Source: Fibrella aestuarina BUZ 2 | Lineage (GTDB): Bacteria; Bacteroidota; Bacteroidia; Cytophagales; Spirosomataceae | Assembly (NCBI RefSeq): GCF_000331105.1 | Contig: NC_020054.1 | Location: forward strand, 3,594,478-3,658,477 | DNA: 64,000 nucleotides | Reading direction: 5' to 3' | The notes under the pieces: model-generated | What the model saw: the letters and a program-made list of their open reading frames with translations, nothing else | What the model was told of the DNA's origin: nothing | Databases searched by the model: none | Made by a program: the position numbers and the translations under genes | Part shown: positions 1 through 64,000 of the stretch, piece by piece | Position numbering within the stretch: position 1 is the stretch's first letter | Layout: each line of letters opens with the position of its first letter

Positions 1-11
1 AACACGCCCCC

Positions 12-524
12 ATGTCCCCTTTACTCGACTCGCCTTTTGTGAGTTCGGCGACGCGTTCGGCCCTGCTGGAACGCTTACAACCAACCACCACACCACCGCG
101 CTACTTCTCCGGCCCGGAACTGACGCTGCTCCAGGCCGTTGCCCTTCGGCTGGCCGGCCCCATGCCCGCCGCCGGGCCGATCGACCTGGCGAGCCCCATC
201 GATGAACGGCTGGCCGACCGAAAATCGAACGGCTGGCGCTACAACGATATGCCCGCTGATGGCGAGGCCTACAAACTAGGGCTGGCGGGCATCGACCAGC
301 ACGCCCAACGGCGATTCGGGCAGACCTTTGTGGCTCTCGCCGATGCCGAAAAAGACACCATCCTGATCGACGTACAACAGGGCGACGTACCTGACGACAC
401 CATCTGGCAACAGGTAGTGCCGAAGCGGTTCTTCGAAGAACTGCTGACCGAAATCACCGAGTACCTCTACGCCCATCCCCACATTCAGGAAGCCATCGGG
501 TACGTTGGTTACGCCGATCTATGA
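12..524 (+). CDS. Gluconate 2-dehydrogenase subunit 3-like small subunit
   Basis: A 170-residue protein resembling the small (gamma, subunit 3) component of membrane gluconate/glucose dehydrogenases. In that family it partners with, and helps mature, a GMC flavoprotein. No signal peptide is visible, unlike many family members that carry a Tat signal. It is cut close to the window edge, so an earlier start cannot be excluded, although the first visible Met gives a normal family length. Its stop overlaps the start of the following GMC oxidoreductase gene as ATGA, so the two are translationally coupled and probably form one complex. The function is inferred from family resemblance plus this pairing. 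Confidence 0.75.
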   Translation: MSPLLDSPFVSSATRSALLERLQPTTTPPRYFSGPELTLLQAVALRLAGPMPAAGPIDLASPIDERLADRKSNGWRYNDMPADGEAYKLGLAGIDQHAQRRFGQTFVALADAEKDTILIDVQQGDVPDDTIWQQVVPKRFFEELLTEITEYLYAHPHIQEAIGYVGYADL

Positions 525-2074
525 AACACTACACCACTGAAGAAACCGTCGACGCCGTTGTCATTGGGACCGGCGCGGGCGGTGCACCGTTGCTGGCCCG
601 GCTGGCCAGCGCAGGCCTGTCGGTCGTGGCGTTGGAGGCCGGCCGGTTCTGGGATCCCAAACGCGATTTTGCCACCGACGAACGCAAGCAGGAATTTCTG
701 TTCTGGAACGACGAACGCCTCAGTGCCGGTAACGATCCCATTGCCTTCGGGCGCAATAACTCGGGCATTGGCGTGGGCGGCTCGACCCTGCACTTTACCG
801 CCTACACGCCCCGCGCCCAACCCGACGATCTGCAACTGCATACCGAGTTTGGCAAGGGCGTCGACTGGCCCCTGGCCTTTGAAGAGATCGAGTCTTACTA
901 CGATGAAATCGAACAGTTTCTGGGCGTGTCGGGGCCGTCGCCTTACCCATGGGGACCAGCGCGGCGGAAGGCCTACGCGCTGCCACCGCTGCCGCTGAAC
1001 AGCGCGGCCGTTCGGATGCAGCGCGGCTGTGCCGAATTGGGCATCCGTACGTCGCCCGCCGCCAATGCGGCGCTGTCGGCGCCCTATTACCAGCCGGGCG
1101 TGGGCTGGCGACCCGTCTGCACCAACCGGGGTTTCTGCCAGGCGGGGTGCAGCGTGGGGGCCAAAGCCAGCATGGACGTGACCTACCTTCCCGTCGCGAT
1201 GGCGAACGGGGCCGAAATCCGGTCGGAGTGCTTCGTGACGGAACTGCCGCTTGATACCCAGGGCCGCATCCGGGAGGTCGTGTATGTGCACAACGGGCAG
1301 ACCTACCGGCAGCGTTGTCGGCACGTCTTCCTATGCGCCGGGGCGCTAGAAACCCCGCGTTTGTTGCTGCTCAATGGGCTCGCCAACAGCAGTGGACAGG
1401 TGGGCCGCAACCTGATGGCCCATACCGGCCCGCAGGTGTGGGGTACGTTCGAGGAGCCTACGTACCCACACCGGGGGATACCCGGCGGGCTGATCTCTGA
1501 AGATACGCACCGCCCCAAAGACCGTAGTGGTAACCCCGTCGATTTTGCGGGCGGGTACCTGCTTCAATCGATCGGTGTGATGCCCGTAACCTATGCCTCG
1601 CAACTGGCCCGCACCAACGGCCTGTGGGGGCAGGCGCTGCACGACGCCATGACGGCCTACAACCACACGGCGGGGATTAATATTCTCGGCGATTGCCTGC
1701 CCTACGATCACAACTACCTCGAACTGTCGGACGAGCTCGACAATCGGGGCGTGCGCAAACCGCGTATTTATTTCACCAACGGGGAAAATGAAAACCGGCA
1801 GATCGACCACGCGCTGGCGCTGATGACCGACATCTGGCAAGCGGCGGGGGCCAAAACAATGTATACGGTGCCCCGGTCGGCCCACGTCATCGGTACGTGC
1901 CGGATGGGCCACAGCGGCGACGCGGCCGTGGTTGACCCCAATGGCCGTTCGTTCGACGTACCCAACCTCTATATCAGTGATAATTCGACGTTTCCGTCGG
2001 CCCTGAGCGTAAACCCCGCCCTGACAATCATGGCGTTGTCGCTCCGAACAGCCGACCAGTTTTTAGCGCGATGA
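521..2074 (+). CDS. GMC-family FAD oxidoreductase with probable 3Fe-4S cysteine motif
   Basis: A 517-residue flavoprotein. The N-terminus has the dinucleotide-binding loop GTGAGG (about residues 13-18) followed by a beta strand ending in E, typical of FAD binding in GMC enzymes. The C-terminus has the GMC substrate region with a His in SAHVIGTC and the NPALTIMAL segment. Cys200, Cys206 and Cys210 (C-x5-C-x3-C) match the spacing of the 3Fe-4S ligands I recall for the bacterial FAD-glucose dehydrogenase alpha subunit (Cys212, 218, 222). The partner small subunit is immediately upstream with a 4-nt overlap. No cytochrome subunit follows, so the electron acceptor is unknown. The substrate is probably a sugar or polyol; this is inference. 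Confidence 0.87.
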   Translation: MKHYTTEETVDAVVIGTGAGGAPLLARLASAGLSVVALEAGRFWDPKRDFATDERKQEFLFWNDERLSAGNDPIAFGRNNSGIGVGGSTLHFTAYTPRAQPDDLQLHTEFGKGVDWPLAFEEIESYYDEIEQFLGVSGPSPYPWGPARRKAYALPPLPLNSAAVRMQRGCAELGIRTSPAANAALSAPYYQPGVGWRPVCTNRGFCQAGCSVGAKASMDVTYLPVAMANGAEIRSECFVTELPLDTQGRIREVVYVHNGQTYRQRCRHVFLCAGALETPRLLLLNGLANSSGQVGRNLMAHTGPQVWGTFEEPTYPHRGIPGGLISEDTHRPKDRSGNPVDFAGGYLLQSIGVMPVTYASQLARTNGLWGQALHDAMTAYNHTAGINILGDCLPYDHNYLELSDELDNRGVRKPRIYFTNGENENRQIDHALALMTDIWQAAGAKTMYTVPRSAHVIGTCRMGHSGDAAVVDPNGRSFDVPNLYISDNSTFPSALSVNPALTIMALSLRTADQFLAR

Positions 2075-2086
2075 GAGGTGGGTTAT

Positions 2087-2174
2087 GAGCTAAGGATGGT
2101 GAATTATGAATTAGATCAAAGCACACAGGTACGTTGTCTGGCTAAGCCAATTCACAATTCATCATTCCAAGCTC
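2087..2174. repeat. Imperfect intergenic inverted repeat (ATG/AAT-rich family)
   Basis: Arms 2087-2114 and 2147-2174 are complementary at 22 of 28 positions, and two of the mismatches would be G-U pairs in RNA. The arms are built from short repeated units such as GAATTATGAATT. The loop contains one copy of the abundant GGTACGT heptamer. It lies between the GMC gene and the GH1-like gene and may act as a terminator or as an mRNA-end structure, although there is no T-run. Confidence 0.7.
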
Positions 2175-2214
2175 GTAGGCCCTCCCGCATCGCTCTTTTT
2201 CCACACAACGTACC

Positions 2215-3546
2215 ATGGATTTTCTGGGACATATTAAGAAACACTTTGGGACTGGGAACTACGAAGGTGACCAGTTTGGCGGGGCTAGCGGCGGCGATGG
2301 CAGCGGTCTCCCGGATGGCTCCCCAACCAATTTTATGTTTGCTACGGGCATCGAATGCTCGTATCCTACCATCAATGGCGGCAAAACCCGCCGCGACCAG
2401 CTGCGCGAATGTGGTCATTATGACCGCTACAAGGAGGATATCGGCCTGGTGAAAGAGTTGGGGCTGAAAGTGTTGCGCTACGGCTTACCGTATCATAACA
2501 TCCACTTGGGGCCGGGTAAATTTGATTGGGAGTTTGCCGATCTGGCGATGGCTGAAATCCGGCGGCAGGGCATCACGCCCATCCTCGACCTGATGCATTT
2601 TGGCGTGCCCGATTGGGTGGGCAACTACCAGAACCCCGAGCTACCGGTGCTGTTTGCCGAGTATTGTGCGGCCGTAGCCGAGCGATACCCCTGGGTACGT
2701 TACTACACGCCCGTCAACGAGATCTACGTGACGGCCCGCCACAGCGCTAAAGACGGTCTCTGGAACGAACAACTCCGCGATGACCGCTCATTTGTGACGG
2801 CCCTGAAGCATACCGTGGCAGCCAGCATTATGGGCACGCAGCAACTGGCCAAACGCCGTAACGACCTGATTATCATTCAGAGCGAAAGCGCCGAGTACAT
2901 CCACGAAGTGCGCGCCGTGCCGTCTGCCGAGATCCGGCTGCACAACGAGCTGCGCTTTCTCTCGCTCGACCTGCTTTACGCCCATGCACCCATCGCCGAC
3001 GTAACGCTGTACCTGCTCGACAACGGCATGACCCGCGACGAATACAACTGGTTTATGGCCGGGCAGCCGCCGGGTTATCAGGTGATGGGTAACGACTACT
3101 ACGGGCGGAATGAACAGATAAAACTGCCTGATGGCAAGCTGTTTAGCTCAATGGATGTGCTGGGGTGGTATCAGATCACCAAAGAGTACTACAACCGGTA
3201 TAAGAAGCCGGTCATGCACACCGAAACTAACGTGTTTGAGGCCGACGATGCGCCCATGTGGCTCTGGAAGCAGTGGATCAACGTGATGCAGATGCGGCGT
3301 GATGGCACACCCGTACTTGGGTTTACTTGGTACAGCCTGATCGACCAGATCGACTGGGATACCGGCCTGGCTGAAGAGAACAACCGCGTCAATGCCTGCG
3401 GGTTGTATGACCTCGACCGCAAGCCCCGCCCGGTGGCCGAAGCCTATAAAATGCTGCTCAAAGAGTTTGGGCAGATTACCATCGTGCCGTATGGGCAGAT
3501 GCTCGAAATCACCGATCGGCCCGCCCGCATCAAAGTCGACGCTTAA
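2215..3546 (+). CDS. Glycoside hydrolase family 1-like protein
   Basis: A 443-residue (beta/alpha)8-type glycosidase. Glu169 in the TPVNE segment corresponds to the GH1 acid/base (usually NEP, here NEI), and Glu337 in HTETN is the expected nucleophile. The N-terminal segment FMFATGIECSYP resembles the start of clan A glycosidases. No signal peptide is seen, so a cytoplasmic beta-glycosidase is most likely. It could act in another clan A family, because the motif neighbours are divergent. The stop codon overlaps the ATG of the following alpha/beta hydrolase (TAATG), implying co-translation. Confidence 0.78.
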   Translation: MDFLGHIKKHFGTGNYEGDQFGGASGGDGSGLPDGSPTNFMFATGIECSYPTINGGKTRRDQLRECGHYDRYKEDIGLVKELGLKVLRYGLPYHNIHLGPGKFDWEFADLAMAEIRRQGITPILDLMHFGVPDWVGNYQNPELPVLFAEYCAAVAERYPWVRYYTPVNEIYVTARHSAKDGLWNEQLRDDRSFVTALKHTVAASIMGTQQLAKRRNDLIIIQSESAEYIHEVRAVPSAEIRLHNELRFLSLDLLYAHAPIADVTLYLLDNGMTRDEYNWFMAGQPPGYQVMGNDYYGRNEQIKLPDGKLFSSMDVLGWYQITKEYYNRYKKPVMHTETNVFEADDAPMWLWKQWINVMQMRRDGTPVLGFTWYSLIDQIDWDTGLAEENNRVNACGLYDLDRKPRPVAEAYKMLLKEFGQITIVPYGQMLEITDRPARIKVDA

Positions 3547-5177: not shown

Positions 5178-5726
5178 ATGAAAGGATTTGTTTTTACGGA
5201 GTTTCTGGAGATGGTCGAAGAGGCACACGGCTACGAGTTAGTCGATAAGCTGCTGCTGGAAAGCCATCTGCCGTCAGGAGGGAACTACACCTCGGTTGGT
5301 ACCTACGACCATGCCGAGATGATCGCGCTGGTCAACAAGCTGAGCGAGCACCTCAACCTGCCCACAGGCCAGTTACTACGTACCTACGGCCGGTACATGT
5401 TCGGCTCGTTCAAGCGGGACTATGGCCTGTTTATCGACAAGGCCGATTCGGCATTCAGTCTGCTCAGTTCCATTCAGCAGTACATTCACGTGGAAGTACG
5501 AAAGCTGTATCCCGACGCTGAGTTACCCCATTTTACCATTACACAACCTGCCCCCGACCGTCTGGTCATGCATTATGAATCAGAGCGTAAACTGGCCGAT
5601 TTCGCCCACGGCCTGATCGAAGGCTGTCTGGCCCATTTTGGCGAAGAGGCTGTTGTGACTGAGTCCAGACGGGCTGCTGATGGCAGCGACGTGATTTTTG
5701 AGATTACCAAGAAAAGAAACGAGTAA
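5178..5726 (+). CDS. H-NOX (haem-nitric oxide binding) sensor protein
   Basis: A 182-residue stand-alone H-NOX domain. His104 (in QYIHVEVRKLYP) is the predicted proximal haem ligand. Tyr133, Ser135 and Arg137 form the diagnostic YxSxR motif that holds the haem propionates. The distal position equivalent to Tyr140 of the oxygen-binding Thermoanaerobacter protein is Phe142, which predicts NO rather than O2 selectivity. Length and motif spacing are typical. It is followed after 29 nt by a histidine kinase, the standard arrangement in which NO-bound H-NOX modulates kinase activity. Cytoplasmic. Confidence 0.95.
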   Translation: MKGFVFTEFLEMVEEAHGYELVDKLLLESHLPSGGNYTSVGTYDHAEMIALVNKLSEHLNLPTGQLLRTYGRYMFGSFKRDYGLFIDKADSAFSLLSSIQQYIHVEVRKLYPDAELPHFTITQPAPDRLVMHYESERKLADFAHGLIEGCLAHFGEEAVVTESRRAADGSDVIFEITKKRNE

Positions 5727-5755: not shown

Positions 5756-8590
5756 ATGGAGAATATTGGTATGCTGAAACGGCGATTGGCCCGCGAACGG
5801 GCTGCCCGGCGCGAAGCAGAACGGTTGCTGGAAGTAAAGGCACTGGCGCTCTACGAGGCCAACCAGCAGCTACAGCACCTGAATGAAAATCTTGAGCAGC
5901 AGATTCGGGCCAAGCTGGAAGAGCAGCGCGCCAACGAACTGCACCACCGGCAACTGATTGAGTCGGTACAGGACCTCATTTTCAAAGTGTCGCCGGCGGG
6001 GCGGTTTACGTTTGTGAGTTCGGCCGCCGAAAAAATGCTCGGCTATTCCGAAGCCGAATGCATTGGCATGCGCGCTACGGATCTGGTGCAGCTAAGCCAC
6101 CGGCAGGCCATGGTCGAGTATTATACCGACATGATTGCCCAGCAGCGGGAGAGTAGCTATGACGAATTTCCAATAACCACCAAAGATGGCCGCACCATCT
6201 GGATCGGGCAGTCGGTACGGCTGGTGGCCGAAGCCGGGCAAGTCGTGGAGATGGTGGCCGTTGCGCGCGATATCACCGACCGGAAACTGGCCGAAGTGGT
6301 ACTGAAAACCACCCAGGTACGTTTGTCGACGCTCATCACCAGCCTGCAATCGGGGGTGTTGGTGGTCGACGAGCAGGGCCGGATTCTGCTCATTAACCAG
6401 CTTTTCTGCGACATTTTCAGCCTTGATCTGCAGCCCGATCAACTGACGGGGCAAGACTCAGGTACGTTGTCGGAAGCCTCGATGCGGGCCGTTGAGAACC
6501 CCGAAGACTTTCTTGTACAAACCCGGTTTCTGCTGAGTCAGCGGCAAACGTCGGTGGGGGAGGTGATCAACCTCAAAAACGGCCGGATTCTGGAGCGCGA
6601 CTACATTCCGCTGTTCCTGAATGAGCAGTATCTGGGGCATCTCTGGCAATACACCGACGTCACCGAGAAGCACACCGCCCGCGAGCAGATTCGCCGCAGC
6701 GAAGAGAAGTACCGGGGCATCATGAACAACATGGAGCTCGGCCTGCTCGAGGTAAACAACGAGCAGATTGTCGTGCGGGTCTACGAGCGGTGCTGCCAGA
6801 TGCTGGGCTACCGTGAAGATGAACTGCTGGGGCAGCACCTGTCTGACCTGCTGGTTCCCAAAGAGTTCCGGGAGGTGATCGACCGGCAGCAGCAGCAACG
6901 GCTGCGCGGCGTAGGGGGGTCGTACGAGCTTCAGTTGCTTAAAAAAGACGGCTCCCGCATTTGGGTGCTGGTGAGCGGCGTGCCCATCTACGACGAAGAA
7001 AGTCGATTGGTGGGGTCGATGGCCATTTACTACGACCTGACCGAACGCAAGCTGCTGGAAACGGAGCTGGCCAACGCCAAGCAGGTTGCCGAGGATGCCC
7101 GGCAGGCCGAGAAGCAATTTCTGGCTAACATGAGCCACGAAATTCGGACGCCCCTCAACGCCATCATCGGCATGTCGCACCTGCTGTTCGATACGCAGCC
7201 GACCTCGCAGCAGCGCGAATACATTGATATCCTGAAAACGTCGGCCGACTTTCTGCACGGTCTGATTTCGAACCTGCTCGACATGACCAAGATCGAGGCG
7301 GGGCGCGTGGAAGTAAACCCCCGTCCGTTTGATCTGGCTGGCCTGCTGCGTTCTACGCAGAAGGTGTTCGAGATGAAGCTTCAGGATCGGCCTATCCAGT
7401 TCCACATTATGCTGGATGCCCGCATCAGTGGCAATTTCATGGGCGATGAGGTGATGCTGAACCAGATTCTGACCAACCTGGTCGGCAATGCCGAGAAGTT
7501 CACCGAGGTGGGCAGCATTCAGCTGACGGTACGGATCCGGCACGAAGACGCCAACAATATCTGGGTGGAGTTTGCCGTGGCCGATACCGGCATCGGGATT
7601 CCCGCCGAGAAAATCGGGTTGGTCTTCCAGAAGTTCAAGCAGGTTAACCCGCAGGGCCATAAGCACAAAGGCACGGGGCTGGGGCTGGCCATCACGAAGG
7701 AACTGGTCGATCTGCTGGGCGGCACCATCAACGTAGAGAGCCGCGCCGGGCACGGCAGCACGTTCACGTTTGTGTTACCTTTCCCGAAAATTATGGCGCC
7801 CCTGAACGCCAACCTGATCGACGCGCCGCCGCCCGCCAGCGTTAAGCCGGAGGTGGGGCACGTGCTGGTCGTGGAGGATAACCTGATGAACCAGAAGTAT
7901 ATCGGTAGCCTGCTGCACAAGTGGCAGGTTCGGTACACCCTGGCTTCGGATGGGCGACAGGCCGTGATGGAGGCCCGCCGCCAGCGGTTCGACCTCATTC
8001 TGATGGATATTCAGATGCCGGTGATGAACGGCTACGAAGCCACCGTAGCTATTCGGAACACGCACAACCCCAACCAGCATGCCCCCATCGTGGCGCTCAC
8101 GGCCTCGGCCATGCTCGACCACAAGAACGTGGCGCTGGAAGCGGGTATGACCGATTTCCTGACCAAGCCCTTTGATCCCGGTCAGCTGATGTTGCTGTTG
8201 CGGCAGTATCCGCACAGTGAACCCGGCGAACAAGGCGGTTTCCAACTGGATCGTAACCGGCTGACCGAATTGTATGGCGATGACCGGATCGCGGCCGCCG
8301 AAATGTTCAATACGTTCTTGACCAGTATCGTGCCCGACCTGTTGCAACTACCCGGACTCTGCCGCCAGCAAAATTGGCCTGAGCTGGTGCGACAGGCCCA
8401 CAAACTAAAACCAACCCTGGGTATGGTGGGCCTCACCCGGCTCGAAAACACCATGCACCGCCTGGAGAAAGCCTCCCGGCACGCAGCCGACCCCGACCTG
8501 GTGAATGTATACTGCCAGGAAGTGGTCACGGCGCTGCAAGAGGCGATTCCCCTTTTAGAAGATGAAGTTCAGCTACTTAACGAGACCTAA
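5756..8590 (+). CDS. H-NOX-associated hybrid histidine kinase (PAS x3, HisKA, HATPase, REC, Hpt)
   Basis: A 944-residue soluble kinase with no membrane segment. An Arg/Glu-rich coiled coil (about residues 5-65) is followed by three PAS-like domains (about 65-180, 190-300 and 315-430). HisKA has phospho-acceptor His461 (NMSHEIRTPLN). The ATPase domain has an N box (NLVGNAEKF), DTGIGI and GTGLGLAI. The receiver domain has Asp751 (LMDIQMPVMNG), and a C-terminal Hpt domain has His882 (QAHKLKPTLG). A full internal phosphorelay is therefore present. The adjacent upstream H-NOX is the likely input and the downstream LytTR regulator the likely output. Confidence 0.94.
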   Translation: MENIGMLKRRLARERAARREAERLLEVKALALYEANQQLQHLNENLEQQIRAKLEEQRANELHHRQLIESVQDLIFKVSPAGRFTFVSSAAEKMLGYSEAECIGMRATDLVQLSHRQAMVEYYTDMIAQQRESSYDEFPITTKDGRTIWIGQSVRLVAEAGQVVEMVAVARDITDRKLAEVVLKTTQVRLSTLITSLQSGVLVVDEQGRILLINQLFCDIFSLDLQPDQLTGQDSGTLSEASMRAVENPEDFLVQTRFLLSQRQTSVGEVINLKNGRILERDYIPLFLNEQYLGHLWQYTDVTEKHTAREQIRRSEEKYRGIMNNMELGLLEVNNEQIVVRVYERCCQMLGYREDELLGQHLSDLLVPKEFREVIDRQQQQRLRGVGGSYELQLLKKDGSRIWVLVSGVPIYDEESRLVGSMAIYYDLTERKLLETELANAKQVAEDARQAEKQFLANMSHEIRTPLNAIIGMSHLLFDTQPTSQQREYIDILKTSADFLHGLISNLLDMTKIEAGRVEVNPRPFDLAGLLRSTQKVFEMKLQDRPIQFHIMLDARISGNFMGDEVMLNQILTNLVGNAEKFTEVGSIQLTVRIRHEDANNIWVEFAVADTGIGIPAEKIGLVFQKFKQVNPQGHKHKGTGLGLAITKELVDLLGGTINVESRAGHGSTFTFVLPFPKIMAPLNANLIDAPPPASVKPEVGHVLVVEDNLMNQKYIGSLLHKWQVRYTLASDGRQAVMEARRQRFDLILMDIQMPVMNGYEATVAIRNTHNPNQHAPIVALTASAMLDHKNVALEAGMTDFLTKPFDPGQLMLLLRQYPHSEPGEQGGFQLDRNRLTELYGDDRIAAAEMFNTFLTSIVPDLLQLPGLCRQQNWPELVRQAHKLKPTLGMVGLTRLENTMHRLEKASRHAADPDLVNVYCQEVVTALQEAIPLLEDEVQLLNET

Positions 8591-12820: not shown

Positions 12821-13288
12821 TTACTCTGCTAGTTCAAACATCGCTTCGATTTCAACGGAGATGTTGCCGGGCAGCGAGCCCATCCCGACGGCGGAACGTA
12901 CCCCGACGCCGTTTTCTTCGCCCCAGATCTGTAGGAAAAGCTCGCTACAGCCGTTGATGACTTTGGGGTGTTCGCCAAACTCGGGTACGGCATTCACCAT
13001 GCCCAGTACTTTTACCACGCGTTTGATGCGGTTGAGGCTGCCGAGCGCCGCCTTGAGCGTAGCCAGAATGGCCAGGCCCGTTTGCTGCGCGGCCGCTTTT
13101 CCGAAGTCCATGTCCACGTCGGAACCCACGCGACCGGTCATCAGACTGTCGTCGGGCATGTACGGGCCATGCCCCGATACGTAAATGAAATTGCCGACGA
13201 TCAGGCAGGGTTTGTAGACGCCCTTGGGTGCTGGAGCAGGTGGAAGCTGGAGGCCGAGGGCCGCGAAATTTTCGTCTGGAGTAGTCAT
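12821..13288 (-). CDS. RidA/YjgF-family protein (enamine/imine deaminase-like)
   Basis: A 155-residue RidA-like protein. The C-terminal region VRSAVGMGSLPGNISVEIEA contains the Arg that in RidA binds the carboxylate of 2-aminoacrylate, and the N-terminal FIYVSGHGPY strand is typical. It belongs to the longer subgroup, about 150 residues, rather than the classical 128. It is the last gene of a minus-strand run that includes a serine hydrolase (48-nt gap). The activity of this subgroup is uncertain. Confidence 0.9.
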   Translation of the reverse strand: MTTPDENFAALGLQLPPAPAPKGVYKPCLIVGNFIYVSGHGPYMPDDSLMTGRVGSDVDMDFGKAAAQQTGLAILATLKAALGSLNRIKRVVKVLGMVNAVPEFGEHPKVINGCSELFLQIWGEENGVGVRSAVGMGSLPGNISVEIEAMFELAE

Positions 13289-17011: not shown

Positions 17012-17050
17012 GGTCGAAATAGGGTACGTTGGGTATGTGGCTAAACAGGA

Positions 17051-52535: not shown

Positions 52536-54803
52536 ATGAACACTCCATCTAATAAACTGCGCGAGGACGCGCTCAACTACCACGCTAAGGGGCGTCCTGG
52601 TAAAATAGAAGTAAACCCCACCAAAGAGACGGAGAATCAGCGGGATCTGTCGCTGGCTTATTCGCCGGGGGTGGCCGAGCCCTGCCTCGCCATCGCCGAC
52701 GTACCCGAACGAGCCTACGACTACACGGCCAAAGGCAACCTGGTGGCCGTCATCTCCAACGGCACCGCCGTGCTGGGGTTGGGCAACATCGGGGCGGTGG
52801 CCTCGAAGCCCGTTATGGAGGGAAAAAGCCTGCTGTTCAAGATTTACGCCGACATTGATGCCTTTGATATTGAACTCGATACGACCGACGTCGAGGAGTT
52901 TATCCGGACGGTGAAGATCCTCGAACCGACGTTCGGCGGGGTCAATCTGGAAGACATCAAAGCGCCCGAATGCTTCGAGATTGAACGGCGGCTGCGGCAG
53001 GAGCTGAACATCCCCGTCATGCACGACGATCAGCACGGCACGGCCATTACGTCGGGAGCCGCGCTGCTCAACGCGCTCGAACTGGCGGGTAAAGAAATCG
53101 ATCAGATCAAGCTGGTGGTGAACGGCGCCGGGGCGGCCGCCATTGCCTGCCTCGACCTGTACGTCGACCTGGGCGTGTCGCCCGACAACATTACGGTGTT
53201 CGACAAAGACGGCCTGCTCAGTAAAGACCGCACCAATCTGGTTGGTAATCAGTATAAATACACCACCGACCGCCACCCGGCCGGTTACGTCCTGGCCGAC
53301 GCGATGGTAGGGGCCGACGTCTTCCTGGGCCTCAGCGTAGGGGGCGTGGTTACCCAAGATATGATTCGGAGCATGGCTCCTGATCCGGTGGTGTTTGCCA
53401 TGGCTAACCCGAACCCCGAAATCACTTACGAAGACGCCACCGCCGCTCGCCCCGACATCATCATGGCGACGGGCCGGTCTGACTTCCCGAATCAGGTGAA
53501 CAACGTGCTTGGTTTCCCCTACATCTTCCGGGGCGCGCTCGACGTGCGGGCCACCGAGATCAACGAGGCCATGAAACTGGCTGCCGTGCGGGCGCTGGCC
53601 GAACTGGCCAAAAAGCCCGTTACCGACGTGGTAAGCCGCAGCTACGGCACCGACGGGCTGGTGTTTGGACGTACCTACATTCTGCCCAAACCCACCGACC
53701 CGCGCCTGCTGATGACCGTAGCTCCGGCCGTAGCCAAAGCCGCCATGGACTCGGGCGTGGCCCGGCGCGCCATCACCGACTGGGCCGACTATGACCTGCA
53801 ACTGTCGCGGCGGCAGGGTCAGGATAACACCTTCATCCGCCGACTGACCCGGCAGGCCCAACAGTCGCCTAAGCGGATCGTTTTCACCGACGGCGAAAAC
53901 CTGACGGTGCTGCGGGCCGTGGCGCAGGTGATCGAGCAGCGCATGGCCGTGCCCATTCTGATTGGCAACGAGGCGGTGGTGCAACGGATGCTCGACGACC
54001 ATAACATGGACCTCGGCGACGTGCAGATCATCGACCACCGCTCGCCCGAACAGGAGTCGTTGCGCGAAGCCTACGCGCAGGTGCTGTACGAAAAACGCAA
54101 ACGAAAAGGCCTCACGCTCACCGAAGCCCGCAACCTGATGCGCGACCGTAACTATTTCGGGTCGGTATTGCTGGAGCAGGGTGTGGCCGACGTGCTGATT
54201 TCGGGCCTCACGCGCAACTACCCGGAAACCTTACGCCCAGCGCTGCAAGTGATTGGCCGACAGCCGGGCATCCAGAAAGTGTCGGGCATGTATGTGCTGC
54301 TGTCGCGGTTCGGGCCGCTGTTCCTGTCGGATACCACGGTGAACATGAACCCGACGACCGCCGAGATTGTCGAGATTGCCGAAACGACCGCCAACGCGGT
54401 ACGTCGGCTGGGCATCGACCCCCGCATTGCGCTGCTGTCGTATTCGACCTTTGGCAGCGCCACCGGCGACGATGCCGTGAAGATGCAGGAAGCCACGGCG
54501 ATTCTCCAAAAGAAGCACCCCGACTGGGTGGTCGACGGCGAAATGCAGGCTCACCTGCCCTTCAATCAGGAGCTCATGCAGGCGTCGTATGGTTTCTCGT
54601 CGTTGGCCGATCAACCCGCCAACGTGCTGATCTTCCCGAACCTGTCGGCGTCGAACATTGCGTATAACCTGCTGAAAGAGATTGGCCGGATCGAGAAAAT
54701 CGGGCCGGTACTGATGGGGCTCCGCAAGCCTGTTCACGTGCTGCAACTCGGTAGCTCGGTGCGCGAGGTCGTGAATATGGTCGCCATCGCCGTAGCCGAT
54801 TAA
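52536..54803 (+). CDS. maeB: NADP-dependent malic enzyme with phosphotransacetylase-like C-terminal domain
   Basis: A 755-residue large-type malic enzyme converting L-malate to pyruvate, CO2 and NADPH. The malic N-terminal domain ([24 protein letters not shown]), the metal site in HDDQHGTAI and the NAD(P) fold [11 protein letters not shown] occupy residues 1-420. A phosphate acetyltransferase-like domain, usually regulatory, spans about 430-755. The start is moved to ATG 52536, because the longer frame begins inside the inverted repeat. Linked with the dicarboxylate symporter upstream. Confidence 0.96.
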
Positions 54804-54864: not shown

Positions 54865-55581
54865 TTACAGCGCGGTGACTTTGATGCGGCTGTAATACAG
54901 CGTCTGGTCGCCTTCGAAGCCCGAATCGGTGCCCACGAAAATCCACAGTTCGCCTTTGTCGTTGGTGCGGGCTTTCAGTGGCTGCCCTTCGTTTGATCGT
55001 TGGATGAGCGTGTATTCCTCCGTCTCCTTGCCGTTGGCCAGATTACCCAACAACACCGACTGCGTGCCGGCCTCCGACTGACTGCCTTTGTCGACGCTCA
55101 GCGTGTAAAAGTCGCCCTGGAGCTTCTTCTCGGGCTTAGTGGCCGAGGCGCCCGCTTTCAGGAACACACTGGTGGCCGGTGAGCCGCCGATGCCGATGCT
55201 GCCCGCCGGGTGCGGCGAGGCCAACTCCACGTCGAAATCAAGCGTGTACTCGGTGTTGGGTGCCAGGCCCGTAAGTTGCTTGCGGACGAACATAAAGAGG
55301 TCGTCGCTGCGGTTGCGGCCACTCACGCGCAGCGCTTTCTTCGTGGTGTCGAGCGGGGCGGGCAGGGGCGCATACGAAAACGAAAATTCGATCAGGTCCT
55401 GCTGGGCCGTGCCGTAATCGGTGGCTTCGCCTTCCCAGCCCGCATTGCTGCTGGCCAGATTGGCGTCGAGCAGTACGCCTTTGTTGATGATGGGGGTTGG
55501 TGTCGAGAGGAAATTCGAACTACAACTGGCAAGCGGCAGAGCCAGCACCAAAAGCGCCAGGCGTTTCACGGTACGTTTCAT
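54865..55581 (-). CDS. Putative lipoprotein of unknown function, lectin-like beta domain
   Basis: A 238-residue protein with a lipobox (LASC, Cys20). The mature part has jelly-roll-like segments (WEGEATDYG, YTLDFDVELASP, LWIFVGTDSGFEG, YYSRIKV), similar in pattern to carbohydrate-binding or discoidin-type domains. No catalytic motif is visible. It is convergent with maeB. Function not assigned. Confidence 0.7.
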   Translation of the reverse strand: MKRTVKRLALLVLALPLASCSSNFLSTPTPIINKGVLLDANLASSNAGWEGEATDYGTAQQDLIEFSFSYAPLPAPLDTTKKALRVSGRNRSDDLFMFVRKQLTGLAPNTEYTLDFDVELASPHPAGSIGIGGSPATSVFLKAGASATKPEKKLQGDFYTLSVDKGSQSEAGTQSVLLGNLANGKETEEYTLIQRSNEGQPLKARTNDKGELWIFVGTDSGFEGDQTLYYSRIKVTAL

Positions 55582-55713: not shown

Positions 55714-56778
55714 ATGACACCCACAGACAAACTCATTTACAAATTTCACCGCATCTTCGGCCTCGTTGGCGGCCTCTTCATCCTGATGCTGAGCCTGACG
55801 GGTTGCATCCTCCTCTTCGATAACGCCATCGATGGCCTGCTGAACCCCGACACGGTGGCCGTGCAGCCGGGTCCGCAACGCCAGCCCTACGACAAGGCCA
55901 TCGCCACCCTGAAACAACACTACCCCGACGCCCAACTGCGCAACCTGGTGCTGTACAGCAGCCAGCCGAACCGCGCCCTGCGGGCCGACGTGCAGAAAGG
56001 CAAGCAGCGCCTGTGGGCTTACGTCAACCCCTACACGGGTACGTTCTTGGGTGAGCGCGACGCCGAACGGGCGTTTGTGCGCCAGGTACGTCAGCTGCAC
56101 GAACACCTGCTAATGCCGCCCGTTGGCGACTGGATTCTGTTTGTGGTGGGGCTGTGCCTCGTCGGGTCGGTGCTGACGGGTACGTGGTATTACCGGAAAT
56201 CGCTGTTGAGCGTGTTCAAGATTGGGGTTCGCTGGAACAAGCCCAAACGGCTGGTCTACGGCGATTTGCACAAATACCTCGGCGTGGTAGCGCTGCTGTT
56301 TCTGCTGATTATTGGCGCTACCGGTACGTTCTTCCACTGGGAACACATCGAACGGTCGCTGGGCGGTGGCCCCCGGCGGCCCGGTCCGGGCGAGGCTCGG
56401 CCCCCCGTGGCGATGGTCGCAAGTGTCGATGCGCTGCTGGCGAAGAGTGCCAGCAACGTACCTGGCTTTGTGGCTGATGTAGTGAACTTCCCCGATGAAC
56501 CCGGCAAGCCGCTTGTGGTGCGGGGCAACGGCGCCGACGCCAATCCGTTTCTGGGCAAGTTCACCTCGTCGGTTGAATTCGATGCGCAATCGGGCGACGT
56601 AACCAAGGTGTTTCGGGCGGGCGAGGCCGATGTCGAATACAAAGTCGAGCACGTTTTCGAGGAACTGCACTTCGGCCGATTCGGTGGCGTGGCGACCAAA
56701 GTCCTGTATTTCGTACTGGCCCTGTGCATGACTGTCGTGACGGCCACGGGCCTGCTGGTCTGGTGGGTGAAGCGCTGA
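55714..56778 (+). CDS. PepSY-associated transmembrane protein
   Basis: A 354-residue inner-membrane protein with four predicted helices: residues about 15-35, about 145-165, about 195-215 and the C-terminal about 325-350. The N-terminal FHRIFGLVGGLFILMLSLTG and DLHKYLGVVALLFLLIIGATG repeats, each with a His before a helix, are typical of PepSY-TM proteins, often linked to iron uptake or reductase activity. PepSY-like periplasmic segments lie between helices. Start at ATG 55714; the longer frame begins at a TTG. Confidence 0.88.
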   Translation: MTPTDKLIYKFHRIFGLVGGLFILMLSLTGCILLFDNAIDGLLNPDTVAVQPGPQRQPYDKAIATLKQHYPDAQLRNLVLYSSQPNRALRADVQKGKQRLWAYVNPYTGTFLGERDAERAFVRQVRQLHEHLLMPPVGDWILFVVGLCLVGSVLTGTWYYRKSLLSVFKIGVRWNKPKRLVYGDLHKYLGVVALLFLLIIGATGTFFHWEHIERSLGGGPRRPGPGEARPPVAMVASVDALLAKSASNVPGFVADVVNFPDEPGKPLVVRGNGADANPFLGKFTSSVEFDAQSGDVTKVFRAGEADVEYKVEHVFEELHFGRFGGVATKVLYFVLALCMTVVTATGLLVWWVKR

Positions 56779-56876: not shown

Positions 56877-59800
56877 ATGAATAAACATACTTTTTTGTGT
56901 GGTATGGCTCTGGCCGGTGGCCTGCTGACGACACTGGCCGATGGGTCGGTGCTGGCGCAGGTACGTGCTACCACCGCCGCGCCAGCCACCGCCGGAGCCG
57001 CCACGAAGCGGATTCTGGTTTTCTCGCGAACGAAGGGCTTCCGGCACACGTCGATTCCGGCCGGGCAGCGGGCGTTGATGGCGATGGGTCAGCAGAACGG
57101 GTTTGCCGTTGACACGACCGAAGACGCCGCCAAGTTTACCGAAGCCAACCTGAAACGCTACAATGCGGTGGTCTGGCTGTCGACGACGGGCGACGTGCTC
57201 GACGACGTGCAACAGGCCGCTTTTGAACGCTACATTCAGGCTGGTGGTGGGTACGTGGGTATCCACGCGGCCACCGACACCGAATACGGCTGGGCCTGGT
57301 ACAACAAGCTGGCGGGCGCGCAGTTTGCGTCGCACCCTGGTAACCCCAACGTGCAGGAGGGCGAAGCCTACGCTGTGAATAAAAACCACGCGTCGATGTT
57401 TGGCTTCCCCGATCGCTGGAAGATCAAGGATGAGTTCTACGACTTCAAGAACTTTAACAAGGCGGTGAACGTGCTTGTCAAGATCGACGAGAAAACGTAC
57501 AAAGATGGCAAAATGGGCGACGACCACCCGATGTCGTGGCAGCATGACTTCGACGGAGGGAAAGCCTTTTACACCAACTTCGGCCACCCCGACGAGACGT
57601 TTACCAACCCGGTGTTTATGAAGCACCTGCTGGGCGGTTTGCAATCGGTAATGGCCGAACGCCTCGACTACGCCAAAGCTAAAACGCAGCCGTTCCCTGA
57701 AGAGAACCGCTTCGAGCGTAAAGTGCTGGTCGACAAGCTCGATGAGCCCACGGAACTGGTGGTGCTGAAGAACGGGAAGGTGCTGTTTGGCGAGCGCAAA
57801 GGCCTGCTGAAAGTGTATAACCCCACCACCGGCAAAACCAAGATCGCGGCCCGCATGCCCGTGTATACCAAGCACGAATACGGCCTGATGGGTGTCAATG
57901 CCGACCCGAATTTTGCGGCCAACAAACGGTTGTACCTCTATTACTCGCCTGATGCGGCGGTGTTTGGTACCGATACCGCTCAGCACCTGTCGGAGTTTAC
58001 CTACGACGATGCCCGCGATACGCTGCTGATGAATACCGAAAAAATCCTGCTGCGCGTGCCCGTGAAGCGGACCGACTGCTGCCATACGGGCGGGTCGATC
58101 GCCTGGGACCGGCAGGGTAACCTCTACCTCTCGACCGGCGATGATACCAACCCGTTTGCCTCGCAGGGCTTCGCGCCCATCGACGATCGGCCGGGGCGGG
58201 GTGGCTGGGATGCCCGCATGACCAGCAGCAACACCAACGACCTGCGCGGTAAGATTCTACGCATCAAACCCAACGGTGGCGGTGGCTATAGCATTCCGAG
58301 TGGTAACCTCTTTCCGGAAGGCACTGCCAAAACCCGTCCCGAGATTTATGTGATGGGCAACCGCAACCCGTACCGTATCTCAGTGGATCAGCGCACGGGT
58401 TTCTTATATTGGGGCGAAGTGGGCCCCGACGCGGGTGAGAACCGGGAGAACCGCGGGCCGCGCGGGCACGACGAAATGAACCAGGCCCGCAAAGCCGGTT
58501 ATTATGGCTGGCCGCTGTTTGTGGCCGACAACCGGCCTTACCGCGCCTTTGCCTTTGCCGACAGCACCGTGGGCGCACCCTTCGACGCGATGAAGCCCAT
58601 CAACAATTCGCCCCACAACACCGGGCTGACCGAGTTGCCACCGGCGCAGAAAGCCTACATCTACTACCCCTACGCCGACTCGCCTGAATTTGGTGCGATT
58701 GTGGGCAAAGGTGGCCGTAACGCCATGGGTGGCCCCGTTTATTACTACGACGACTATCCGGAAACAAAAGTGAAGTTCCCGCGCCATTACGACGGTAAGT
58801 TCTTCGCCTACGACTGGATGCGCGACTGGATTAACCCCGTGACGATGACGCCCGAGGGCGACTTCGTGCAGATGGAGCGCTTCCTGCCCAACACGAAGTT
58901 TTCGCACACCATCGACATGCAGTTTGCGGATGATGGCAGCCTTTACACCCTCGAGTATGGCCAGAACTGGTTTGCCCAGAACGATGATGCACGCCTGTCG
59001 CATATCACCTACAACGCCGGAAACCGTCGGCCCGTAGCCGTGGTCGCTGCCAGCAAACAGGTTGGTGCTGCACCGCTGAAAGTGACCTTCGATACCAAGG
59101 GTACGATGGATTACGATGGCGATGCGGTGAAATACGCCTGGAATTTTGGTCCGGGCATTCCGGCCAGTACGGCGGCTAACCCGAGTGTTACGTTCGCCAA
59201 GCCGGGCATTTACACCCCCACGCTGACCGTAACGGATGCCGCCGGTAACCGCACCACGCAGACCGTGACCATCAAAGTAGGGAACGAGATGCCAACGGTC
59301 AATGTGGCGGTGAAGGGCAACAAAACCTTCTATTTCCCGCAGAAACCCATTGCCTATCAGGCGAGCGTAATGGATAAGGAAGACGGTGCCCTCGACAAAG
59401 GCATCAGCGCTGAGGATGTCACGATGACCATCAACTACATCGAAGGCTTCGACAAGACGGTACTGGCACAGGGTCATCAGGCCAATCTGGGCTTTTCGAC
59501 GGGTAAACGCCTGATCGAACTGAACGACTGCAAAGGCTGCCACGCTATCGACAAAAAGTCGATTGGGCCTGCCTATATCGACGTAGCTCGCAAGTACAAA
59601 GGCCGCACCACACGGTTCGGGGCGCTGGCGCAGAAGATCATCACCGGCGGCGGCGGCGTCTGGGGCGAGCAGGCCATGAGCGCCCACCCGCAGGTGAAAC
59701 GCGAAGAAGCTGAGGACATGGTGAAATACATTATGTCGCTGGCCGACGAGAAGATGGCTAATAAACAGCCGCTGGCCGGTACGTATGCTCCTGAAGCACA

Positions 59801-60806: not shown

Positions 60807-61535
60807 TTAGTTGGCACAATACGACGCTACGGCGTTGGCGGCATCGGGATAGCCGAGTTTCTGCGCCTGTTTGAGGCTAAGGCAGGCGGCGTCGCGCTGT
60901 TCGGCCAGTAGCTGAGCCAGACCTAGTCCGTAGAAGGCTTTGCCGAAACTCGGATTGGCGGCCACACAAGCCTGAAAATCGGCGATGGCACCGGGCAGGT
61001 CCTTCTGGTTGAAACGCAGATTCCCCCGGTTATACAGCGCCAACGCGTTGCGCGGATTCAGCTTGATAGCCTGATCGAAATCGGTGAGGGCGGGCTGGGT
61101 CTGGCCTTGTAGCGCAAACAACTGTCCCCGGTTCAGGTACGTGTCGGACGTCGAGTTTTTGGCCGTGTCGGGTGCCAGCCGAATGGCCTCCGAATAATCC
61201 TTAAGAGCCCCCGGGATGTCGCCCTGACTCGTTTTCAGCAGCGCCCGGTTGTAATAGGGCCGGTAGAAGTCGGGCTTTAGTTTCAGTGCCTGCTCGTAGT
61301 CGAGTTGGGCATTGGCGTATTCTTTCAACTCGAAATAAGCCGCGCCACGGGTAACGAAGGCGTCGGCATTGTCGGGATCCGACTCAATGGCGGCATTTAG
61401 CGCCTGCACGGCCTCGCGCGATTTTCCTTCCCGCAGCAGCTGACGCCCCTGCTGAAGTTGCTCGTCGGAGGCGTTACAGGCAAAAAGAATCAATAGGGTA
61501 CTTTGTATGAGAAGTGACGAAAAAAACGAGCGCAT
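60807..61535 (-). CDS. TPR-repeat lipoprotein
   Basis: A 242-residue protein with a hydrophobic N-terminus and lipobox-like LFAC (Cys21), so probably lipidated. Residues about 28-225 form five to six tetratricopeptide repeats (for example AFVTRGAAYFELKEYANAQLDYEQAL). It is a protein-interaction scaffold, partner unknown. The start is ATG 61535; the longer frame would put a 27-residue extension before the signal. Confidence 0.87.
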   Translation of the reverse strand: MRSFFSSLLIQSTLLILFACNASDEQLQQGRQLLREGKSREAVQALNAAIESDPDNADAFVTRGAAYFELKEYANAQLDYEQALKLKPDFYRPYYNRALLKTSQGDIPGALKDYSEAIRLAPDTAKNSTSDTYLNRGQLFALQGQTQPALTDFDQAIKLNPRNALALYNRGNLRFNQKDLPGAIADFQACVAANPSFGKAFYGLGLAQLLAEQRDAACLSLKQAQKLGYPDAANAVASYCAN

Positions 61536-61697: not shown

Positions 61698-61700
61698 CAG

Positions 61701-61906: not shown

Positions 61907-63082
61907 ATGAACCTTCCCGAATCGCTCTCCGCCCAGTTTGTGCAACGTTTTGGAGAACAGCCCACGTTGCTCAAATCACCCGGTCGGGTAAACCTGATTG
62001 GCGAACATACCGACTATAATGGTGGCTTCGTGCTGCCCGCAGCCATCGACAAAGGCATCTATATGGCCGTTGGCCCGCGCTCTGACCGGCAACTCCATTT
62101 TACGGCGGCTGATCTGAATAGCACCTACACCGGCTCCCTCGATCAGGTGAAACCCGCCTCGAAAGGCTGGGCCAATTACCTCCTCGGGGTTATCGAGCAG
62201 GTGCAACGGGATCAACAACTGCCGGGCGGCCTGAACGTCGTTTTTGGTGGTACGATCCCCATTGGGTCGGGGCTGTCGTCGTCGGCGGCGCTGGAAAACG
62301 GCGTGATTTTCGCCTTAAACCACCTCTACAAGCTGGGTATGGAGCGCGTGCCGATGGCCCTGCTGTCGCAACGGGCCGAGAATCAGTTTGTGGGCGTGCA
62401 GTGTGGCATCATGGATCAGTTTGCGTCGATGATGGGCCGAGCCGGTAACGTGATCAAACTGGACTGCCGTTCGCTTGAGTACGCCTACGCGCCACTGAAC
62501 ATGACGGGCTTCCGCATCGTGCTGTGCGACTCACGGGTGAAACACTCGCTCGCCTCGTCGGAATACAACACGCGCCGGGAAGAATGCGAAGCTGGCGTCG
62601 CGATCATCCGGACCAACGAGGCCGACTCGGGTAGCAGCGACCACATTCGCAGCCTGCGCGACGTAACGATGCCCATGCTCGACACGTACCTGCGCGATCA
62701 GAACCCGCTGCTTTACCGCCGCTGCGCTTACGTGGTGCAGGAAAACCAACGTCTGCTCGATGGCGTGGCCGATCTGGAAGCGGGTGACATTGCCGCTTTT
62801 GGGCAGCGTATGTACGGATCGCACGAAGGACTAAGCCACTGGTACGAAGTAAGTTGTCCCGAGCTGGATGTGCTCGAAGACATTGCGCGCAATCACCCCG
62901 GCGTGCTGGGCGCACGTATGATGGGCGGCGGCTTTGGTGGCTGCACCATCAACCTGGTTCGCGAGGAGGCGCTGGCTGACTTTGAAGACACCATCCGGCA
63001 GCAATACCTGGCCCGCACCGGCAAAGAGACCCTGATCTACAGCACCGTCATCGAAGACGGCACGCATCTGATAGAGGTATAA
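61907..63082 (+). CDS. galK: Galactokinase
   Basis: A 391-residue GHMP kinase phosphorylating galactose at C1 for the Leloir pathway. The galactokinase signature GRVNLIGEHTDYNGG, the ATP loop PIGSGLSSSAALE and the third motif GGGFGGCTIN are complete. Normal length. Other gal genes are not in the window; the flanking gene is a transaldolase-like aldolase after a hairpin. Start at ATG 61907, after a quasi-palindromic leader (61812-61884) that has GGTCCAA/TTGGACTT units. Confidence 0.97.
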   Translation: MNLPESLSAQFVQRFGEQPTLLKSPGRVNLIGEHTDYNGGFVLPAAIDKGIYMAVGPRSDRQLHFTAADLNSTYTGSLDQVKPASKGWANYLLGVIEQVQRDQQLPGGLNVVFGGTIPIGSGLSSSAALENGVIFALNHLYKLGMERVPMALLSQRAENQFVGVQCGIMDQFASMMGRAGNVIKLDCRSLEYAYAPLNMTGFRIVLCDSRVKHSLASSEYNTRREECEAGVAIIRTNEADSGSSDHIRSLRDVTMPMLDTYLRDQNPLLYRRCAYVVQENQRLLDGVADLEAGDIAAFGQRMYGSHEGLSHWYEVSCPELDVLEDIARNHPGVLGARMMGGGFGGCTINLVREEALADFEDTIRQQYLARTGKETLIYSTVIEDGTHLIEV

Positions 63083-63101: not shown

Positions 63102-63151
63102 GTTTTCAGTTGGCTGACGCGCCAGCAATCACGCGTCAGCCAACTGAAAAC
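63102..63151. repeat. Perfect 20-bp inverted repeat sharing its apex with the 60293 palindrome
   Basis: Arms 63102-63121 and 63132-63151 are exact complements. The apex-proximal GGCTGACGC and GCGTCAGCC are identical to those of the palindrome at 60293-60398, although outer arms differ. It lies between galK and the aldolase gene. Confidence 0.9.
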
Positions 63152-63208
63152 TCAAAACTCTAAACGGAAAACTCTATTTTTACCCCCAACACAATTCCAC
63201 TTTAGCAC

Positions 63209-63868
63209 ATGAAATTCTTCATTGATACGGCCAACCTCAACGACATTCGGGAGGCACAGGACATGGGTATCCTCGACGGCGTCACCACCAATCCGTCCCT
63301 GATGGCCAAAGAAGGCATCACGGGTAAAGACAACGTACTGCGCCACTACAAGCAGATTTGCGAAATCGTGGAAGGCGACGTAAGTGCGGAGGTGATCGGG
63401 ACGACCTTCGACGAGATGATCCGCGAAGGTGAAGAACTGGCCGAACTCGATGATAACATCGTGGTGAAGATTCCGATGATCAAGGATGGCGTGAAAGCGC
63501 TGAAATACTTCTCGGAAAAGGGCATCCGTACCAACTGCACGCTGGTGTTCTCGGCGGGGCAGGCGCTGCTGGCCGCCAAAGCCGGGGCTTCGTATGTGTC
63601 GCCGTTCGTGGGTCGCCTCGACGACGTGTCGACCGACGGGATTGAGTTGATCGAGCAGATTGTGACCATCTACCGCAACTACGGGTTCACCACCGAAGTG
63701 CTGGCGGCGTCCATTCGCCACCCGATGCACGTAATTCAGTGTGCCGAAATCGGGGCCGACGTGATGACTGGTCCGCTGAGCGTGATGACGGCGTTGCTCA
63801 ACCACCCCCTCACCGATATCGGCCTGGCCAAATTCCTCGCCGACCACAAGAAAGCAGGTACGTTGTAG
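63209..63868 (+). CDS. Transaldolase-like / fructose-6-phosphate aldolase family protein
   Basis: A 219-residue short transaldolase (TalC/FSA type). The start [17 protein letters not shown] and loop DGVTTNPSL are characteristic. The Schiff-base Lys is Lys87 (VVKIPM), and the phosphate site is in the strand [12 protein letters not shown]. Length equals that of the small subfamily. It is either a pentose-phosphate transaldolase or a fructose-6-phosphate aldolase; the sequence alone does not settle which. A near-consensus -7 (TATTTTTA) is about 30 bp upstream. Confidence 0.93.
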
Positions 63869-63873
63869 CCTAT

Positions 63874-63975
63874 CTAATGTATAATGAAGGATGTATAGTT
63901 TATAATGTATTTTGCTCAGATATATACGTTTGGCAAACACTCATTATACATCATGCATCCTTCGTTATACATTAG
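63874..63975. repeat. Inverted repeat with ATGTATAATGAAGG units
   Basis: Arms 63874-63893 and 63956-63975 match at 19 of 20 positions. Further AATGTATAATG-like copies continue to the window end (63990-64000), so the element may extend beyond it. Confidence 0.8.
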
Positions 63976-64000
63976 CTTACTCGTCGTTCATTATACATTA

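Follow-up and report, generated by a model that had tools for sequence, protein, structure and literature searches.

The window, a stretch of 64,000 nucleotides from Fibrella aestuarina BUZ 2 (G000:C2:3594478-3658477), contains 93 exact copies of the heptamer GGTACGT, 51 on the plus and 42 on the minus strand, within genes and in the spaces between them (Table 1). An earlier note made from these letters had counted about 90 copies by hand against about 8 expected, which was correct: under an order-0 model 8.4 are expected, and GGTACGT ranks first among the 7-mers of the window for over-representation under both order-0 and order-3 models. Expectations at orders 1 to 4 are 7.8, 17.8, 16.5 and 22.7, and the order-5 model, which already holds most of the word, gives 70.1. 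The excess extends to the whole genome (G000; 6,937,263 bases in two contigs), where we counted 8,209 copies (4,149 plus, 4,060 minus), or one per 845 bases, against 686 copies of the reversed word (336 plus, 350 minus), a 12-fold excess. It also stands against a third-order Markov model in a 464-kb sample made up of the window and 20 further stretches of G000, in which GGTACGT is the top 7-mer with 536 copies against 113 expected (z 39.8). Contig 1 (161,819 bases) is enriched too, with 79 copies in four 20-kb stretches, about one per kb. Gaps between copies are near random and mildly clustered, 136 of them spanning at most 150 bases when 103 were expected. A 12-fold excess in the host genome is no avoidance, and we rejected the reading of GGTACGT as a restriction site. 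The low-GC stretch L059 has just 4 copies in 20 kb, and 5,000 bases of L063 (G000:C2:6270001-6290000) are N.

Codon usage does not account for the word. Genes were called with a simple dicodon script, not taken from annotation, and one of 357 was dropped from the shuffled set because of N. Across the 464 kb, GGTACGT is present in all six coding frames, with 208 sense and 278 antisense copies, and between genes as well. For the shuffled set, in which 207 sense and 279 antisense copies were observed, shuffling synonymous codons within genes predicts 34 and 73; a stricter version, which holds constant the two bases to either side of a codon as well, predicts 52 and 163. Every one of the six frames retains a 2.2- to 12.3-fold excess after synonymous shuffling, and 48 intergenic copies compare with 7.3 (order 0) to 10.5 (order 3) expected. 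The claim that the copies, on both strands, in several frames and between genes, go beyond codon preference was therefore sound, and correcting for codon pairs does not remove the excess. All three sites that had been offered as intergenic examples lie between called genes; the copy at 2128 is placed exactly, and those put at 32031 and 17001 start at 32028 and 17023. At the amino-acid level the effect of the word is small, and quintile counts revealed no clear bias towards gene ends. With the terminus taken as the midpoint of C2, which starts with a gene resembling dnaA by eye, the leading strand has 258 copies and the lagging strand 267 (23 stretches, the window not among them). This balance and the enrichment of the second contig speak against a replication-orientation signal, one of the roles suggested earlier. 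The presence of the word in all frames after shuffling, its intergenic excess and the lack of strand skew thus point to a signal at the DNA level that is not oriented with replication.

The word has preferred flanks. In the window, the base at -2 is C in 51 and T in 29 of the 93 copies, and that at -1 is A in 35, G in 38 and T in only 3; on the 3' side the commonest bases are T (40) and then G (46). A pyrimidine-purine step precedes 435 of the 536 copies in the 464 kb (CA 189, TG 148, CG 59, TA 39), so the fuller Fibrella form is YRGGTACGT, often followed by T and G. An extended form C[AT]GGTACGT[TA] had been proposed; C at -2 and A at -1 are indeed common, but T is rare at -1. The perfect palindrome reported near 31725 exists, at 31721-31730. 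This palindrome, GGTACGTACC, occurs 15 times in 524 kb, compared with about 5.6 expected from base composition after a plus-strand copy, a mild excess that is smaller than that of the single word, and we rejected it as the unit. We also noticed other repeats: intergenic runs of seven-base repeats of the AATGTAC or AATGAAT kind, some forming facing pairs, lie in the window at 34318-34404, 45246-45314 and 63986-63999, and all 23 copies of ATGTACAATG counted in the 464 kb are intergenic.

Table 1 Exact matches to GGTACGT in the window; copies on the minus strand read ACGTACC on the plus strand.
Feature	Position	Strand
GGTACGT copy	499..505	+
GGTACGT copy	1442..1448	+
GGTACGT copy	1892..1898	+
GGTACGT copy, intergenic	2128..2134	+
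GGTACGT copy	2694..2700	+
GGTACGT copy	6316..6322	+
GGTACGT copy	6461..6467	+
GGTACGT copy	10038..10044	+
GGTACGT copy	10811..10817	+
GGTACGT copy	11438..11444	+
GGTACGT copy	13887..13893	+
GGTACGT copy	15153..15159	+
GGTACGT copy	15552..15558	+
GGTACGT copy	16173..16179	+
GGTACGT copy	16894..16900	+
GGTACGT copy, intergenic	17023..17029	+
GGTACGT copy	17875..17881	+
GGTACGT copy	18914..18920	+
GGTACGT copy	22613..22619	+
GGTACGT copy	26440..26446	+
GGTACGT copy	26919..26925	+
GGTACGT copy	27597..27603	+
GGTACGT copy	29230..29236	+
GGTACGT copy	29372..29378	+
GGTACGT copy	30188..30194	+
GGTACGT copy, left half of palindrome 31721-31730	31721..31727	+
GGTACGT copy, intergenic	32028..32034	+
GGTACGT copy	33789..33795	+
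GGTACGT copy	33902..33908	+
GGTACGT copy	34098..34104	+
GGTACGT copy	37952..37958	+
GGTACGT copy	38753..38759	+
GGTACGT copy	39556..39562	+
GGTACGT copy	41186..41192	+
GGTACGT copy	42096..42102	+
GGTACGT copy	42169..42175	+
GGTACGT copy	48636..48642	+
GGTACGT copy	49535..49541	+
GGTACGT copy	51723..51729	+
GGTACGT copy	51876..51882	+
GGTACGT copy	54398..54404	+
GGTACGT copy	55570..55576	+
GGTACGT copy	56038..56044	+
GGTACGT copy	56085..56091	+
GGTACGT copy	56179..56185	+
GGTACGT copy	56323..56329	+
GGTACGT copy	56960..56966	+
GGTACGT copy	57250..57256	+
GGTACGT copy	59778..59784	+
GGTACGT copy	61136..61142	+
GGTACGT copy	63857..63863	+
GGTACGT copy	385..391	-
GGTACGT copy	1460..1466	-
GGTACGT copy	1956..1962	-
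GGTACGT copy	2208..2214	-
GGTACGT copy	5378..5384	-
GGTACGT copy	11192..11198	-
GGTACGT copy	12896..12902	-
GGTACGT copy	15483..15489	-
GGTACGT copy	16342..16348	-
GGTACGT copy	16645..16651	-
GGTACGT copy	18466..18472	-
GGTACGT copy	18782..18788	-
GGTACGT copy	20763..20769	-
GGTACGT copy	21814..21820	-
GGTACGT copy	22775..22781	-
GGTACGT copy	23259..23265	-
GGTACGT copy	23616..23622	-
GGTACGT copy	24723..24729	-
GGTACGT copy	28826..28832	-
GGTACGT copy	29425..29431	-
GGTACGT copy	29948..29954	-
GGTACGT copy	31664..31670	-
GGTACGT copy, right half of palindrome 31721-31730	31724..31730	-
GGTACGT copy	38720..38726	-
GGTACGT copy	39214..39220	-
GGTACGT copy	39548..39554	-
GGTACGT copy	39623..39629	-
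GGTACGT copy	39797..39803	-
GGTACGT copy	39905..39911	-
GGTACGT copy	42041..42047	-
GGTACGT copy	42818..42824	-
GGTACGT copy	43526..43532	-
GGTACGT copy	43606..43612	-
GGTACGT copy	45512..45518	-
GGTACGT copy	47219..47225	-
GGTACGT copy	48380..48386	-
GGTACGT copy	48401..48407	-
GGTACGT copy	48561..48567	-
GGTACGT copy	52699..52705	-
GGTACGT copy	53669..53675	-
GGTACGT copy	56456..56462	-
GGTACGT copy	62684..62690	-

Three of the five genomes of the genus are rich in the word: G000, Fibrivirga algicola (G001; 7,042 copies) and Fibrella forsythiae (G003; 8,083 copies). The other two, F. aquatilis (G002; 1,784 copies) and F. rubiginis (G004; 1,845 copies), are low, and the reversed word occurs 626-756 times in each of the five. 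At 23-kb loci the counts are 24 in Fibrivirga algicola, 30 in F. forsythiae, 2 in F. aquatilis and 3 in F. rubiginis. A weak residual excess in the genes of the low genomes (41 against 22.5 and 32 against 16.8) fits a remnant.

To measure maintenance we used a single alignment of G001 with G003, 48.7 kb long and 78% identical; conservation counts exclude high-scoring segment pairs shorter than 250 bases and gapped sites. GGTACGT was kept at 36 of 52 and 36 of 55 sites, compared with 22-23% for permuted words, and with 72 of 107 kept (both directions of the one alignment) it was the best kept of 58 common heptamer classes, for which the median was 0.32. Synonymous codons that overlap the word were kept in 97 of 130 cases, where the same codons elsewhere predict 60.2, and in 100 of 125 against 59.9 in the reverse direction; codons with a changed amino acid, Met and Trp were left out. 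Conservation spans the whole heptamer, at 0.86-0.93 per position, compared with a mean near 0.78 beside it, where single columns reach up to 0.90. For the low pair G002 and G004, overlapping synonymous codons were kept as expected (15 of 25 against 15.2, and 16 of 25 against 15.0), and 14 of 33 copies overall were kept (median 0.42). Retention relative to permuted words and synonymous codons thus shows active upkeep of GGTACGT in G001 and G003, and none in G002 and G004.

Sites of G000, in counts converted from fractions, are shared with G003 in 7 of 9 and 6 of 10 cases and with G001 in 6 of 16 and 6 of 10 (permuted words 12-15%). They are hardly shared with G002 and G004 (2 of 16 and 2 of 15; permuted words 19%). 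A ComEC tree places G000 next to the low pair with weak support (88/59), and a tree of the window gene at 56850-60293 places it outside both pairs (100/99). As the three high species are ungrouped in both gene trees, a single loss in the lineage of F. aquatilis and F. rubiginis is the simplest history. We note that the ComEC of G000 (L053 1672-3801) sits on a very long branch, with 0.73 changes per column against a median of 0.17.

Across the family, 9 of 222 genomes hold GGTACGT at at least four times the control (G000, G001, G003, G114, G115, G197, G204, G214 and G216; the numbers of genomes above control, for this word and the next, were read off tables by eye). One of them, G197, belongs to genus g33, which we take to be Spirosoma, and its favoured word in 440 kb sampled is YRNTACGT. 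In its genes, TACGT follows YR-N 1,871 times against 308 expected and stands in other contexts 905 times against 656, and the YRNTACGT excess is present in all six frames. A locus of Spirosoma endophyticum (L024) has the same form at about 2.9 per kb. Genome-wide counts of YRNTACGT (control in brackets) are 39,401 (3,143) in G197, 22,928 (2,638) in G214, 22,187 (2,862) in G216, 18,007 (3,056) in G186, 11,939 (2,552) in G114, 11,914 (2,501) in G115 and 10,207 (1,770) in G204. Together with G200 and G209 these make up the 9 of 222 genomes with at least three times the control. Two sampled stretches of G216 have 1.5 copies per kb, below its whole-genome 2.7 per kb.

The base before GGTACGT is A or G in 595 of 697 copies from G000 and C or T in 236 of 302 copies from G197; this contrast indicates that a TACGT core and a YR step are common to both forms, with the spacing between them shifted by one base. 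YRNTACGT is clearest in G197 and less clear in genus g10 (G114 and G115), in which the best word after codon shuffling (60 kb) is not YRNTACGT but TACGGTC, at 27 copies against 6.4. In the ComEC tree the rich g33 genomes G186, G197, G214 and G216 are interspersed among poor ones, several forks being unsure. In g8 genomes YRNTACGT read backwards is about 1.5 to several times commoner than the word itself, so this control is not neutral there.

Other words in these genomes deviate from expectation. At loci L135, L136 and L164-L183 of G197, GCGGCG occurs in genes once against 219 expected and GAGGCG once against 120; GMGGCG is thus near-totally avoided, a pattern such as an active restriction enzyme would leave. 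Every coding frame of G137 has an excess of AAACCGG (L160, L161; 53 in genes against 16), and this word is raised, though not in every frame, at locus L017 of Larkinella sp. C7 (22 against about 11); it is possibly another self word of the family. In the low-copy F. rubiginis (L074-L077), GGCGTAGA occurs 19 times in 80 kb against 2.1 expected, which may reflect chance, a repeat or a different word.

Our tentative reading is that GGTACGT may be an uptake-sequence-like signal of self DNA that has dialects in Bacteroidota. Known uptake sequences, textbook material for two families of Proteobacteria, occur roughly once per kb and are maintained, in theory, by biased recombination. By analogy, a DNA-binding component of the cell would prefer DNA carrying GGTACGT, and uptake and recombination would thereby favour word-bearing DNA, mostly from kin. 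Alleles that carry the word would spread over those without, and copies would accumulate and be kept where the coding sequence permits. On this view a DNA-uptake receptor would read the word, and the copies would be kept by transformation-based drive and not by selection at each site; both points are inferred. Of the roles suggested by the earlier note, an uptake signal fits best with the density, strand symmetry, spread over frames, synonymous maintenance, shared-core variants and lineage loss, but no receptor was found.

The word resembles the DNA uptake sequences (DUS) of Neisseriaceae in being short and asymmetric, in occurring at least about once per kb on both strands and within genes, and in having shared-core variants in related species, one DUS dialect having arisen by insertion of a single base (PMC3630211, in extract). 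It differs in its Bacteroidota host, in its 7-base core with weak flanks and where DUS have 10-12 bases; neither intergenic DNA nor spaced inverted pairs are enriched for it, and no reader of the ComP type is known. Weak flanking preferences, as seen for GGTACGT, are also a property of the uptake signal sequences (USS) of Pasteurellaceae. Density is a further likeness to USS, as is the greater frequency of one orientation within genes, here antisense (PMC2346458, in extract). Unlike USS, GGTACGT is a different word with no clear gene-end bias, and competence and receptor are putative here. Bacteroidota can be competent: Riemerella columbina is reported to take up its own DNA preferentially (PMC7965970, in extract), and its relative R. 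anatipestifer depends for competence on ComEC, DprA and ComF and on envelope proteins of an unfamiliar kind (PMC8459023, in extract).

Several observations weigh against an uptake signal. GGTACGT is sparser between genes (0.78 per kb) than within them (1.23 per kb), and in Haemophilus and Neisseria intergenic DNA is the richer. Spaced inverted pairs are not in excess, as 30 of 56 neighbours at most 50 bases apart are inverted and 15 of these are the overlapping palindrome. Uptake words are expected to be scarce in codon-atypical genes, yet these are not poorer in GGTACGT, the lowest decile of coding score (47 genes) having 1.11 copies per kb and an observed-to-expected ratio of 4.94. Known uptake sequences are read by type IV pili, which members of this family are not known to make, and a pilus receptor of the ComP kind is not known from Bacteroidota. 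No uptake receptor was found, in a search that did not include DprA, ComF or type IV pilus genes. ComEC was found in 60 of 60 relatives searched and in G000, and HhH-domain proteins in 14 of 14 genomes, in high and low species alike. In the low F. rubiginis, a frameshift breaks comEC into two overlapping frames (L130 10645-12756, G004:C33), for which a sequencing error is possible; gene order around it matches that in F. aquatilis, which is also low and has an intact comEC. A loss of competence is therefore suggestive only, and competence genes do not track GGTACGT.

The literature, which we surveyed in part, adds to these points. We found no uptake experiment for the family, and the 4.5 YRNTACGT per kb of G197 exceed the densest uptake dialect that we met, at about 2.5 per kb; the extract of PMC3630211 gives Kingella oralis, with 5,918 uptake sequences in 2.4 Mb, as the densest then known. 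The words given for R. columbina are putative ones from a k-mer count (PMC7965970, in extract), so a preference for self DNA in Bacteroidota could exist without a word of this kind. These points are explained equally well by a chromosome-marking protein that is not an uptake receptor, and for this reason we hold the uptake reading with reserve.

Such a protein, with a role in chromosome organisation, xenogeneic discrimination or nuclease control, might bind GGTACGT, and the cell would tell its chromosome and plasmid from foreign DNA by how densely they carry the word. Occurrence on both contigs, the very high density in G197, and maintenance at synonymous sites with a small effect on protein sequences are all compatible with this; no candidate protein emerged, however, spacing is near random, and we consider it rather unlikely.

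An unlikely explanation, too, is that an orphan DNA methyltransferase marks GGTACGT, with selection or methyl-directed repair preserving the word, an idea put forward for the highly iterated palindrome HIP1 (GCGATCGC) of cyanobacteria. Extreme over-representation, presence in coding and intergenic DNA, and patchy lineage loss and replacement do recall HIPs (PMC4390886, in extract), but HIPs are palindromic and tied to methyltransferase targets, and GGTACGT is asymmetric. We searched 14 genomes for four methyltransferase families (PF01555, PF02384, PF00145 and PF07669), obtaining 124 match rows, in which fragments of a single gene count separately, and compared proteins from 86 loci; several rows had no locus or were left out of the comparison, including one from G001 (945 amino acids, PF07669) and one sub-threshold row from G000. 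Every genome has some methyltransferase-like match (PF07669 in 14 of 14), and G000 and G003 share a PF00145 enzyme at 60% identity. However, PF01555 has no match in 5 of 14 genomes, including the rich G001, G197, G186 and G114, and G001, despite its 7,042 copies, has no PF02384 match either. PF00145 matches are lacking from all but one of the six YRNTACGT-rich genomes searched. Among the proteins compared, a single one of G000 has a relative in G001; it is about 1,700 amino acids long, is encoded on contig 1 and is present in G002 and G004 too, so in this comparison no enzyme of the four families co-varies with the word. In these families (PF02086 and others were not searched) none was detected in all three high and absent from both low genomes, which leaves the methyltransferase-based maintenance system suggested earlier without support there.

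A recombination signal read by AddAB or RecBCD is very unlikely. Chi and the FtsK-orienting polar sequences (KOPS) are likewise short, asymmetric and over-represented, and Chi words also vary between species, as GGTACGT does. Both are oriented with replication, unlike GGTACGT, which has no leading-strand preference; its density and the enrichment of the second contig also argue against a Chi-like role.

We regard a mutation or repair bias that continually creates GGTACGT as highly improbable. A mutational engine could quickly reach the copy number of the variant in G197, and some one-base neighbours are indeed low: GGGACGT (20 against 78.5), GGCACGT (51 against 108.7), CGTACGT (40 against 83.2) and GGTCCGT (38 against 74.8). 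No single neighbour supplies the excess, however, as the two largest deficits are about 58 each against an excess of 432; deficits are scattered over several positions, and other neighbours are raised (GCTACGT 96 against 59.1; GTTACGT 56 against 31.4). The excess also requires seven defined bases plus the YR step, and all of the heptamer is conserved. Vsr-type conversion of single bases is disfavoured, the deficits being spread across several neighbour words. Finally, an artefact of codon pairs or composition has next to no chance of being the cause: the frames in which the word encodes TY or VP do rank among the most frequent, and the strictest shuffle shrinks the antisense excess, but synonymous shuffling leaves an excess in every frame, intergenic DNA has one too, and on the shuffles we rejected the artefact.

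Over-represented self words are a known phenomenon; our partial survey of the literature met neither this phylum nor a variant of the spacing type, and in it neither this word nor one resembling an uptake sequence was described for the family. More speculatively than for GGTACGT itself, the Fibrella and Spirosoma family could possess a dialect-forming self-DNA code, built of TACGT and an upstream YR step. This code would be the first in Bacteroidota, would reach up to 4.5 copies per kb, would have a reader other than a type IV pilin or a methyltransferase, and would act as a sequence barrier to gene exchange between lineages. If the word has no part in uptake, it is still a large unexplained genome-wide signal, with 39,401 copies of the variant in one genome, G197. 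If it does, uptake words would have had an independent origin in Bacteroidota, and the high and low sister species would provide a natural comparison and a route to the outer-membrane DNA receptor of the phylum.

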